IMG/VR virus record: IMGVR_UViG_3300021964_000668
Span: 1 to 21,264 of that record
DNA length: 21,264 nt
Direction: 5' to 3' (one strand)
Source: a virus
In this document: positions 1,994-20,927 of the stretch, in pieces
Layout of the letters: each line of letters begins with the position of its first letter
Position numbering within the stretch: the stretch's first letter is position 1
The notes under the pieces: generated by a model
The model's database searches: none
Told to the model about the DNA's origin: nothing
Seen by the model: only the letters and a program-made list of their open reading frames with translations
Made by a program: the position numbers and the translations under genes

Positions 1994-2195
1994 TTGTAGA
2001 CTCCTCAACTTTCTTTAACATTAATATCTTTGCTTCGTCATAGTAGCCCATACGTGCTAATTCAGAAGCTGCTCTTGCTCTACCTGCATTTTCGCCGAAA
2101 GCAATTACACCTACAAAGGATGCTAATAATACCTTACGAATAACATCACAAAATTTACATGTAAATGTCCAGTATGTTTGTGCTAATGTACTCAT
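1983..2195 (-). CDS. Small protein, 70 aa, with an ASELARMGYYDEAK motif
   Basis: The ATG at 2195 overlaps the TGA of the DUF1127 gene (ATGA), with an AGGGAG Shine-Dalgarno upstream. Residues 1-35 include a hydrophobic helix (KVLLASFVGVIAF) with two nearby cysteines (CKFC). Residues 36-60 form a charged helix GRARAASELARMGYYDEAK, a layout that resembles the helix of DUF1127-type small proteins (RELSRLSDHEL...). It could be a membrane-tethered relative or partner of the neighbouring DUF1127 protein. Function unknown. Confidence 0.68.
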   Translation of the reverse strand: MSTLAQTYWTFTCKFCDVIRKVLLASFVGVIAFGENAGRARAASELARMGYYDEAKILMLKKVEESTNAG

Positions 2196-2401
2196 TTGTA
2201 AAATTCTCCCTTTGCAATAGATATTATGTCTGATCGTCCAATTCCTAAATCGTGGAGTTCGTGATCACTAAGTCTTGAAAGTTCTCTGATTGTTCTGCGC
2301 TCCAGTGCCTTGCGAGCTCTATTGCGTTGAATGTTACGGATTAGGTCCGCTAGTCCATCAAAATTTAACCAATTTGCTGCTGTTAAAATTGCCTGTGTCA
2401 T
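2192..2401 (-). CDS. DUF1127 domain small protein, 69 aa
   Basis: The C-terminal half (about residues 30-62) carries the DUF1127 signature: a basic Arg-rich stretch (RNRARKALERRTIRELSRL), then SDHELHDLGIGRSDI. DUF1127 proteins are small, Arg-rich and abundant in alphaproteobacteria. Some family members are known to bind RNA and influence RNA turnover and phosphate or stress responses. The start ATG at 2401 overlaps the TAA of the upstream 57-aa gene, with AGGAG about 10 bases upstream. Finding it in a phage operon suggests a host-derived regulator, possibly acting on RNA. That role is inference; the domain call is fairly firm. Confidence 0.85.
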   Translation of the reverse strand: MTQAILTAANWLNFDGLADLIRNIQRNRARKALERRTIRELSRLSDHELHDLGIGRSDIISIAKGEFYK

Positions 2402-4027: not shown

Positions 4028-4810
4028 TTATTTTTGGCTGTTCTCTTTTCCTGAAGCATACATTTCAAGATAGTTTGTGTAATTAGTCATTGAATGATCT
4101 GAAAAATTATCAATTGAGCCTTGCTTTAAGCCCATCCACATACCACGAATTCTATCTTTGAACCTTTGAAAGCCTGAAGGATTCCTTACATTACCATAAG
4201 CGTTCATGTAATGTTCCTCGCCGTGATGTCTGTATCCCATTATCCATAATGGCACTCTGGTAACAATATCATTATTGTTTACCCAACGGTGATGATCAAC
4301 ATCCAAACTATTCACATAACCTCTCCATCCTACTCTAGGAGAGCCATATGTGTATAGTTCAATCGGGTTGTTTAAATTATTATCATGCTTGCAACGACTA
4401 GCCATTATTGTTGCCATCGCGGCACCTAGACTGTGCCCACAGAACCATAACTTTTTGTTGGAGTTAACTTTTCTGTTTAAATCTTCTTGCACCATAGGCC
4501 ATATATCGTCAACTTCTTTTTTGAATCCTTTGTGTACACGACTTACTGTTTCTGCCATAACTGGAATTGCTCTCAAATCAGCTTTGATATCATTAAATTG
4601 TGTAGGCTGTGTACCCCTACAAGCAATTACTAGATCTTCTTTATTCATAAAGCGGTATGCTTGTGCTCCGTCTTTATCATAAAATTCTATTGTTGTAAAT
4701 CCTAATTTTTTTGCTTGACTTGTCGCTTCATCTACGTTATAATACGATATACTAGATAATTTTGCAAATAATAAGGATCTTTCTTTGAAATTTAGTTTAG
4801 ATATTTCCAT
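4028..4810 (-). CDS. Class 3 lipase-like alpha/beta hydrolase, 260 aa
   Basis: The protein has the full Lipase_3 layout. A strand with CRGTQP (residues 64-69) is the likely oxyanion region. The nucleophile elbow GHSLGAAMA carries Ser127, the likely acid is Asp181 in NNNDIVTRVP, and the likely His is His239 in FSDHS. YGSPRVG (155-161) is also typical. There is no signal peptide, so it probably acts inside the host or in the virion on acylglycerols or phospholipids; the substrate is not evident. The start ATG at 4810 has a perfect AGGAGG upstream and a minus-strand late motif. Being monocistronic and late, it could help with membrane breakdown at lysis or lipid remodelling; both are inference. 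Confidence 0.85.
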   Translation of the reverse strand: MEISKLNFKERSLLFAKLSSISYYNVDEATSQAKKLGFTTIEFYDKDGAQAYRFMNKEDLVIACRGTQPTQFNDIKADLRAIPVMAETVSRVHKGFKKEVDDIWPMVQEDLNRKVNSNKKLWFCGHSLGAAMATIMASRCKHDNNLNNPIELYTYGSPRVGWRGYVNSLDVDHHRWVNNNDIVTRVPLWIMGYRHHGEEHYMNAYGNVRNPSGFQRFKDRIRGMWMGLKQGSIDNFSDHSMTNYTNYLEMYASGKENSQK

Positions 4811-9691: not shown

Positions 9692-9988
9692 ATGCTGTTA
9701 AGAGAACTTACATCCACGATTGATGAAAGACAAATATGGGCCCGATCCGGGAAGAAGGTTGTACGCAAATATAGATGTACATCTGGATCTAGGAAAGGAC
9801 GTATTGTTGCGAAAATGGCTCAGTGTTTTGCAGCTCCTGATGTCAAAAAACGTTTTGCCCTTAAACGTCTTAAAGCACGTCTAGGGGGAAGAATGGCTCG
9901 AAAGGCAAAGAAGACTAAACGGGTGAATCCAGCAAGCCGTAGAGTTCAAGCTCTTAACCGTAAACCTAAAGTGGCTAAAAGAAGATGA
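9692..9988 (+). CDS. Very basic protein A of a tandem pair, 98 aa
   Basis: The protein is extremely rich in Lys and Arg, with few acidic residues beyond the N-terminus. It starts MLLRELTSTIDERQIW. A core VRKYRCTSGSRKGRIVAK with Cys29 and Cys45 follows, then a basic tail (ARKAKKTKRVNPASRRVQALNRK). The next gene is a paralogue with the same order of motifs. The charge suggests nucleic-acid binding, and the N-terminus fits a cleavable capsid-targeting peptide, so a DNA-associated head protein is plausible. The two cysteines could bind metal or be structural. The end overlaps the next start by 4 bases (ATGA). Confidence 0.72.
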   Translation: MLLRELTSTIDERQIWARSGKKVVRKYRCTSGSRKGRIVAKMAQCFAAPDVKKRFALKRLKARLGGRMARKAKKTKRVNPASRRVQALNRKPKVAKRR

Positions 9989-10284
9989 TTCTACGTGAAC
10001 TATTTACAGAAGGTGTTACACAGATATGGAGTAGAGCAGGCTCTAAGAATGTGAGAAAATACCGTTGTACTTCAGGCACAAGAAAAGGTAGAATTGTTGC
10101 TAAACCTAGCACCTGCACAGCACCAAAAAATATGAAGCAAGCTGTGTCATTAAAAAGAACAAAAGCTCGTAAAGGTAGTATAATTAAAATTAAGACTACA
10201 CGTACTAAGAGAGCAAATCCAGCTAGTCGTAGACTTGTTAAGCTCAACAGAAGAAAATATTCTGGTAGGAGAAAAAGCAAATGA
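9985..10284 (+). CDS. Very basic protein B, paralogue of the preceding gene, 99 aa
   Basis: It shares with its neighbour the start ILREL, QIW-R-G, VRKYRCTSG-RKGRIVAK, a second Cys (Cys28 and Cys44 here), LKR-KAR, TKR-NPASRR and LNR. Between these blocks the two differ strongly, so the duplication is old and both copies appear maintained. The tail ends GRRKSK. Highly basic small proteins of this kind usually bind DNA or RNA. It overlaps both neighbours by 4 bases, so the three genes 9692-10892 are probably co-translated. Confidence 0.72.
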   Translation: MILRELFTEGVTQIWSRAGSKNVRKYRCTSGTRKGRIVAKPSTCTAPKNMKQAVSLKRTKARKGSIIKIKTTRTKRANPASRRLVKLNRRKYSGRRKSK

Positions 10285-19510: not shown

Positions 19511-19690
19511 ATGACTACAACTCATGAGCAAATCGTACAGGCGTTTAATAACTATCTAGCAGAAGCAGAAACCTTTGATGAAAAAGGTGTAAAGGCAGCC
19601 GCTGCAAGAGCCCGTAAAGCACTAGGAGATTTAGGAAAGTTGACTAAATCACGTAGAGCTGAAATTCAAGAGAAAAAGAACTCAATGTAA
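19511..19690 (+). CDS. Small basic helical protein, 59 aa
   Basis: This short gene has a clear AGGAGA Shine-Dalgarno, ATG 19511 and TAA 19688-19690. The protein is helical: an acidic N-terminus (MTTTHEQIVQAFNNYLAEAE), then a basic Ala-rich helix (KGVKAAAARARKALGDLGKL) and a tail TKSRRAEIQEKKNSM. The Ala/Lys/Arg helix recalls small histone-like DNA-binding proteins; similar short proteins occur in T4-like cyanophages from memory. Its stop overlaps the next start (TAATG). Confidence 0.72.
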   Translation: MTTTHEQIVQAFNNYLAEAETFDEKGVKAAAARARKALGDLGKLTKSRRAEIQEKKNSM

Positions 19691-19899
19691 TGAGTGGACA
19701 ACGGCGCTGGCTTAAATTATGGGCTAGAACTGTTGGAATGCCAGTTGGCATCACAGACGACGATAAGCCAGAGTTTCTTCCGATAACACAAGACGATGTA
19801 AGGAAGGCTCTGGCTTTTCGCACCTTTTGGATCATACTTCATATTATAACATGTTGTATGATTATCGCAGGCAATGCAAAAAGTTTATTTTTTGATTGA
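19690..19899 (+). CDS. Small membrane protein, 69 aa
   Basis: The ATG overlaps the previous stop. The basic N-terminus (MSGQRRWLKLWARTVG) is followed by a short acidic segment (DDDKPEFLPITQDDVRKAL) and one hydrophobic helix (FWIILHIITCCMIIAGNA, about residues 47-64) near the C-terminus. It is probably a one-pass inner-membrane protein with the N-terminus in the cytoplasm. Its TGA stop lies inside the TTGACA box of the tmRNA promoter. Function unknown. Confidence 0.68.
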   Translation: MSGQRRWLKLWARTVGMPVGITDDDKPEFLPITQDDVRKALAFRTFWIILHIITCCMIIAGNAKSLFFD

Positions 19900-19926
19900 C
19901 ACTAGACTAAAATAGTGTTATAAATA
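19896..19926 (+). promoter_or_regulatory. Dual early/late promoter of the tmRNA gene
   Basis: TTGACA (19896-19901), a 17-base spacer and TATAAA (19919-19924) form a near-consensus sigma70 promoter. The -10 region extends to TATAAATA (19919-19926), an exact T4 late motif. Transcription would start at about 19931-19933, immediately before the acceptor half of the tmRNA. Confidence 0.75.
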
Positions 19927-19930
19927 GACT

Positions 19931-20220
19931 GTAACGTTGAAGCCAATCAACAACGAACTGGACCCGGGGGCAGTACCCGGCGCCTCCACCATAAACACAT
20001 TTACGGAGTGTGCTTATGATGGGGGCGAAATAGGATCGACAGGCGTAAGAGAGAACGTGGAGTTGCCCGGATCTAAGCACGGTTATCGCGAAGAAAACTT
20101 ATAGTTGCAAATGATAACTATCAGCCAGAAATGGCACTAGCGGCCTAGTGTAGGCACGTAGGGGTTGGCGACTTACCTGGCAACAGAAAAGTCGTTTCAC
20201 TTTTGCAATAGAGATTTTCC
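19931..20220 (+). ncRNA. ssrA: Circularly permuted (two-piece) transfer-messenger RNA
   Basis: The 3' acceptor half comes first and ends in encoded CCTCCACCA (CCA at 19989-19991). A 29-base spacer follows, then the 5' half GGGGGCGAAATAGGATCGACAGG at 20021. The acceptor stem GGGGGCG (20021-20027) pairs with CGCCTCC (19981-19987) over 7 bp with G-U at the third pair, the alanine identity element. ACGTT (19934-19938) and GCC (19942-19944) pair with AACGT (20054-20058) and GGC (20042-20044). The tag frame 20107-20148 reads ANDNYQPEMALAA, then TAG, ending in a ClpXP-type LAA. GTTG/CAAC and CGACTT/AAGTCG (20164-20194) interleave as a pseudoknot. Permuted ssrA is known in alphaproteobacteria and some cyanobacteria. 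The RNA rescues stalled ribosomes. Outer ends are approximate. Confidence 0.93.
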
Positions 20221-20240
20221 ATCCAAGATAATTAGTTTGT

Positions 20241-20274
20241 AGTTTAGTATAAACTAAACTCTTTTCATGAAAAG
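20241..20274 (+). other. Hairpin plus 14-base palindrome between tmRNA and the outer-membrane gene
   Basis: AGTTTAGT (20241-20248) pairs with ACTAAACT (20253-20260) around ATAA, followed directly by the perfect palindrome CTTTTCATGAAAAG (20261-20274). No T-run follows, so it is at best a weak terminator. It may be an RNA processing site or a protein-binding site allowing partial read-through into the downstream gene. Confidence 0.45.
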
Positions 20275-20291
20275 CTAGAAGGATAAAATTA

Positions 20292-20879
20292 ATGAAAAAG
20301 ACATTTGCAACGGCCGCAATGGCCGTTTTGATGTCATCTGCTGTAATGGCTGATGACTATGACAACACTGCCTACAGCATAAGTGCTGATAGTACAACTT
20401 GGGGACTAAGTCTTACAACTGGTAATACTACAGATTATGGCGATGATGCACAAACACTAGATATTCATACGAATGGTGATGGCATTAACTTTGGTGTAAC
20501 ATTTATTGAAACAGGGACAGATATGGATTACAGAGCAACTGCATCGTCTACAATTCAAGGAAATATTGCCTATTTACGTGCTGGTGTAAGTTATGACTGG
20601 GGTGATAATTTTGCTACCGAAGAACTGCGTTTTTCACCTGTAGTCGGTGTTGAAAAAACAATAGGTTCATATAAACCTTTTGCAGAACTAGGTTATGATT
20701 ATAAATCATTAGAAGGTGATTACTTAGATTTTGATGCGGCTGATAGTCATGCGACTGTTGGTGTAGCATACAATCTTACAGAATCAGCCGCAGTTACGGC
20801 AACTGTGACACGTGAAATGGACAAAGACTTTGACAAAACAGATCAAGAGCTTGGACTAGGATTTAGTGTAAAGTTCTAA
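20292..20879 (+). CDS. Secreted outer-membrane beta-barrel-like protein, 195 aa
   Basis: The N-terminus is a clear Sec signal peptide (MKKTFATAAMAVLMSSAVMA, cleavage after Ala20). The mature part alternates amphipathic beta strands with polar Asp/Gly/Asn turns, and the last strand ends LGLGFSVKF with a terminal Phe, the signal for outer-membrane assembly. Size and strand count fit a small 8-strand barrel (OmpA/OmpX or YfaZ type). It has an AAGGA Shine-Dalgarno, no obvious promoter of its own except via the tmRNA, and a strong terminator. A phage-made outer-membrane protein could block superinfection, alter permeability or mimic a host porin; none is shown. Confidence 0.82.
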   Translation: MKKTFATAAMAVLMSSAVMADDYDNTAYSISADSTTWGLSLTTGNTTDYGDDAQTLDIHTNGDGINFGVTFIETGTDMDYRATASSTIQGNIAYLRAGVSYDWGDNFATEELRFSPVVGVEKTIGSYKPFAELGYDYKSLEGDYLDFDAADSHATVGVAYNLTESAAVTATVTREMDKDFDKTDQELGLGFSVKF

Positions 20880-20900
20880 TTGGATTTTTCACATTTCAAA

Positions 20901-20927
20901 AAGGCTGCTTTATGCAGCCTTTTTTTG
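20901..20927 (+). terminator. Strong intrinsic terminator after the outer-membrane gene
   Basis: AAGGCTGC (20901-20908) pairs with GCAGCCTT (20914-20921) around TTTAT, followed by a T-run to 20927. Textbook intrinsic terminator. Confidence 0.93.

Follow-up and report, generated by a model that had tools for sequence, protein, structure and literature searches.

The presence of tmRNA genes in phages is established. They were reported in 402 of 18,146 phage genomes and fell into 133 unique structures, of which 53 are two-piece and 50 of these marine or aquatic (Buchholz et al. 2022, PMC9004378), and the tmRNA database held 79 bacteriophage sequences in 2025. No dedicated paper was found under the phrase "phage-encoded tmRNA". 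A cultured representative is Methylophilales phage Melnitz (MZ577097), a marine T4-like phage whose tmRNA was placed behind an early promoter (PMC9004378). In the marine T4-like phages S-PM2 and Syn9, overlapping early and late promoters stand before one gene and are thought to yield a middle mode of expression (PMC2984593).

The stretch analysed here (hereafter the window) is one whole IMG/VR record of 21,264 bases. Covariance models identify in it a circularly permuted (two-piece) tmRNA gene of the alphaproteobacterial type (Table 1), as a preceding sequence-only reading had proposed. The Rfam model RF01849 (alpha_tmRNA) matched 19892-20197 (+) in cmscan with 134.6 bits against a gathering threshold of 50 (E 4.8e-37), and RF04321 (tmRNA_permuted) matched 19931-20148 with 108.3 bits. 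Membership in RF01849 is further marked by the gene order with acceptor stem and CCA, by P2 and PK1, and by a tag frame with a stop and a hydrophobic C-terminus. The interval first proposed, 19896-20220, does enclose promoter and RNA, but its last ~20 nt lie past the 3' hairpin. The acceptor stem comprises 7 bp (20021-20027 with 19981-19987) and includes the G3-U70 pair, G20023-U19985. The intervening segment has partly complementary ends (AAACACA and TGTGCTT) and holds no ORF.

Table 1. Features of the tmRNA locus in the window
Feature	Position	Strand	Basis
Hybrid promoter (-35 TTGACA 19896-19901, 17-nt spacer, TATAAATA 19919-19926)	19896..19926	+	
RNA body	about 19931-20197	+	
Acceptor piece	19931..19991	+	Rfam match, alignment covariation
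P2 5' strands, acceptor piece	19931-19935; 19953-19955, 19958-19960	+	
Acceptor-piece hairpin GUUGA/UCAAC	within 19931..19991	+	
T arm	19964-19980	+	covariation, 26 viral homologues
Acceptor 3' strand CGCCTCC	19981-19987	+	sequence
Discriminator A, then encoded CCA	CCA 19989-19991	+	sequence
Intervening segment, 29 nt, presumed removed	19992..20020	+	sequence
Coding piece before tag (first base G 20021)	20021..20106	+	
P2 3' strands, coding piece	20040-20046 and 20062-20066	+	
PK1 stems	20067-20069/20080-20082 and 20077-20079/20086-20089	+	
Tag frame GCA...GCC = ANDNYQPEMALAA, 13 codons	20107-20145	+	sequence
Tag stop TAG	20146-20148	+	sequence
3' hairpin CGACUU-ACCUGGCAACAGAA-AAGUCG	20169..20194	+	sequence

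ARAGORN did not detect the gene in the window, a negative result that was discounted as a limit of the tool. A downstream Rfam candidate, osmY, was dismissed as weak (E 0.13, below threshold), and a scan of the window for intrinsic terminators returned none.

In view of the 53 two-piece examples in Buchholz et al., the tmRNA database, matching isolate phages and a pattern scan of IMG/VR that gave at least 119 stretches, the window tmRNA is not a novel class. It shares with the permuted tmRNAs of Alphaproteobacteria (RF01849, Caulobacter type) the gene order, G-U acceptor stem, P2, PK1 and the ANDN start of the tag, whereas its promoter is of another kind and its 3' domain is shorter. Cellular alphaproteobacterial genes reach ~250-312 bits (best 150 rows of a class sample), and the window scores about half of this because its 3' domain is shortened. 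Like the window, Melnitz is a marine T4-like phage with an alphaproteobacterial-type permuted tmRNA, TTGACA-N18-TATAAATA upstream and no SmpB found. Unlike the window, it carries an ORF overlapping the intervening segment and a glutamine riboswitch (RF01739) just downstream of the tmRNA, and its tag and genomic neighbours differ. No RF01739 match appeared in window 19850-20400 at E up to 1, and the riboswitch, found beside the tmRNA in Melnitz and in few other phages, is not a defining trait of phage tmRNAs in general. Phage DSS3_MAL1 (MN602268) likewise encodes a permuted tmRNA (118.7 bits), although this one adjoins tRNAs rather than nrd genes; a GOLLD RNA (L239:776-1239, 160.5 bits) also lies next to it. 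Other phages of Ruegeria, Rhodobacter, Phaeobacter and Mesorhizobium gave short DNA matches over parts of the TLD.

The structure was examined in an alignment of 26 viral homologues of the window tmRNA, and covariation there shows that its pairing is maintained by selection. RNAalifold returned 26 pairs, and compensatory changes occurred in 14 of these; across 32 named pairs including PK1, 95.2% of cells were paired. Cells changed on both sides numbered 114 against a shuffle mean of 32.7, with 0 of 500 shuffles as high. Sliding the partners by 1-3 columns lowered pairing to 35-47%, a control that is flattered by a structure derived in part from the same alignment; the evidence from two-sided changes does not rest solely on this. 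The acceptor helix was paired and its U-G pair retained in all 26 homologues, the P2 helices were 98-99% paired and the PK1 stems 87% and 77%, again with two-sided changes, and a 2-pair helix between these was paired in 85%. The acceptor strands, G-U pair, P2, pseudoknot and 13-codon tag recognized earlier are borne out by the sequence, and P2 and the pseudoknot by covariation as well. The AACAGAA of the 3' hairpin was invariant, partly by choice since rows were cut at this motif, and its flanking stems vary. The nearest relative, viral contig L100, is 89% identical to the window over 3.4 kb, and between the two, CUG/CAG in P2 is replaced by CAG/CUG, while both sides of the T stem have changed. 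The tag codons of this pair are only 48% identical, against 85-96% for the flanking genes.

The tmRNA locus is phage DNA. The nrdA and nrdB genes of the window match phage families, and among named relatives nrdB is closest in DNA to that of pelagiphages Mosig and HTVC008M and of cyanophages. Dozens of viral contigs share all or part of the order nrdA-nrdB-glutaredoxin-p19207-Hc1-tmRNA (45 matched at nrdB, 34 at Hc1), which disfavours an assembly join between host and phage and agrees with the initial placement of the gene among phage genes. The RNA type and a DUF1127 protein (PF06568, E 4.7e-11) at 2192-2401 (-) weakly suggest an alphaproteobacterial host; the DUF1127 family is common in Alphaproteobacteria. 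SmpB (Pfam PF01668) was found in none of 16 related records, which include four of 133-168 kb and may be fragments; the Melnitz record carries a complete-genome annotation, and control genomes were positive. Use of host SmpB by the phage tmRNA is therefore probable.

Several other features of the region were recorded. A 722-base stretch from the tmRNA 3' end (20198-20919) is missing in L100, which rejoins at window 20920, and contains an ORF (20292-20879) with a signal peptide and a barrel-like character. A class 3 lipase (PF01764, E 1.3e-24; 4028-4810, -) lies on the strand opposite to most window genes, and two overlapping tandem paralogous basic proteins (9692-9988 and 9985-10284, +) belong to no Pfam family. 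In marine virus AG-345-O18, a manA RNA (L238:765-962) occurs near an Hc1 homologue.

The promoter had been described from the letters as fitting both sigma70 and T4-late rules, and this description stands. By sequence match, TATAAATA is the exact T4-late consensus, which requires no -35 of its own, and doubles as the -10 element, and the -35 element overlaps the final codons of ORF 19690-19899. The promoter scan program did not list this hybrid because it requires T at the last -10 position. TATAAATA lies upstream in 69 of 88 unique viral tmRNAs versus 0 of 46 unique bacterial loci, with 0.0035 expected per scanned interval at the rate at which it occurs in these contigs, and a perfect TTGACA stands 16-18 nt before it at 57 of 83 tmRNA sites versus 1 of 122 other sites; these counts are not independent because the contigs were picked by tmRNA patterns and are related. 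The 47 distinct spacers (<70% identity) average 35% pairwise identity, which indicates that both boxes are retained while the spacer drifts. A spacer hairpin, ACACTA...TAGTGT, occurs in the window and some close relatives; it was set aside as a general feature, with 9 of 47 spacers beating shuffles at p<=0.05. The arrangement TTGACA-N16-18-TATAAATA before most phage tmRNAs seems to be a new feature, and no description of the promoter statistics or of the nested ORFs treated below was met in the literature examined. The overlapping promoters of S-PM2 and Syn9 also join early and late elements, but they stand at homologues of T4 middle genes rather than at a tmRNA with one shared -10.

The tag of the window retains the ANDN start and the LAA end, and its middle is less odd than was first claimed. 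Exactly the same tag occurs in 12 other viral stretches, kindred viral tags (YAPEMALAA, NQPEMALAA, QQPEMALAA and YEPEMALAA) form an x-PEMALAA family, and ANDNEMALAA is encoded by several sampled cellular tmRNAs nearest in the tRNA-like part. Of the 54 distinct viral tags 44 end in LAA, versus 13 of 32 bacterial ones, rough fractions because the bacterial set is an Alphaproteobacteria sample biased towards strong or similar matches, and the tag-calling script expects an A-rich end; they lend no support to the suggestion that tagged proteins are handled differently. The tag diverges fast among close relatives. A genome search for x-PEMxLAA gave three matches: one in Rhizobium was rejected as a tmRNA tag, the genome having a different tmRNA, and another (L124, PALK01000009.1) is binned as a Rickettsiales MAG yet viral in IMG/VR. 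The third, in a 335-kb contig binned as Neomarinimicrobiota (L123, PBPT01000016.1), belongs to a tmRNA behind a phage-type promoter. Long viral tags of 24-31 residues are predicted in L094, L098, L015 and others, in L021, L104 and L061, and in L111, L158 and L164; one example, ANDNALSNVTFVDFSAPVTAVNEDFALAA, occurs in 11 contigs.

With a probability of roughly 0.85, the locus is a working phage copy of an alphaproteobacterial-type two-piece tmRNA, a trans-translation RNA made throughout infection. For processing, charging, timing, protease fate and benefit to the phage, we infer the following course. A single precursor from one promoter would be read early by the host sigma70 RNA polymerase and also by the phage T4-type late sigma, and tRNA-processing enzymes would cut out the intervening 29 nt, so that the mature molecule would consist of an acceptor RNA and a coding RNA held together by the acceptor stem and P2. 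The G3-U70 pair would allow host AlaRS to charge this molecule, which SmpB and EF-Tu of the host would bring to ribosomes that have stalled on broken mRNA; there the nascent chain would receive A+ANDNYQPEMALAA and the ribosome would be freed. The LAA end may then direct the product to host ClpXP-type proteases, and the extra tmRNA supply could keep ribosomes working while host and phage mRNAs degrade. It is plausible, as suggested earlier, that the decay of phage mRNA may be what stalls the ribosomes concerned. To our knowledge, ribosome rescue during phage takeover has been little tested.

A covariance score about half that of cellular copies, together with the rapid turnover of tags, might suggest a captured host gene fragment or a degenerate remnant without function, but compensatory changes in P2, the T arm and PK1, open tags, and conserved promoter and synteny make this very improbable. 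Phage tmRNAs of this type are, on these data, widespread and selected RNAs, not stray host pieces. Alternatively, the RNA might be a decoy or dominant negative, occupying SmpB or ribosomes of the host and thereby blocking its trans-translation. A precedent is phage DS6A, which has a TLD-only tmRNA; strong inhibition of tmRNA by a similar molecule is on record (PMC4131195). As phage SmpB was not found, such an RNA could titrate the host protein. Yet a decoy would need neither tag nor PK1, whereas PK1 covaries and most of the 54 distinct viral tags retain the reading frame with its stop, the ANDN start and the LAA end, and we regard the decoy as unlikely.

Slightly less probable still is an early role of the RNA in marking host proteins for degradation so that their amino acids can be reused, as proposed for Melnitz (Buchholz et al. 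2022, PMC9004378). The sigma70 -35/-10 elements and the retained LAA degron agree with it, but the -10 is a full T4-late TATAAATA in most relatives, Melnitz included, which makes early-only expression unlikely, and tmRNA targets stalled chains, not finished proteins. The dual promoter predicts early and late expression, in contrast to the early-only reading in the one paper found on a cultured relative, Melnitz. A wider proposal, held tentatively and with the odds somewhat against it, is that a family of marine T4-like phages controls trans-translation itself: its tmRNA, almost alone among T4-late-box genes in these contigs, would have a fused sigma70/T4-late promoter and be made during all of infection, with a fast-changing tag and host SmpB.

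Several viral permuted tmRNAs outside the window also carry small ORFs within the intervening segment that would be discarded, some with a purine-rich stretch before the ATG. The longest-ORF shuffle p was 0.001-0.03 in seven segments (two near-identical) and 0.0025 in Melnitz, whose nested ORF (54 aa) extends into the coding piece; the rest tested were not significant. Nested ORFs were also seen at L155, L151, L145, L160, L153/L166 and L002. One 75-codon ORF is nested at L233:1501-1725 and L235:1501-1725, whose tmRNAs differ, and the same ORF stands free of any tmRNA at L236:1501-1725 with 88% identity. In this comparison 12 codon differences are synonymous and 9 non-synonymous, and third positions account for 13 of the 21 base changes.
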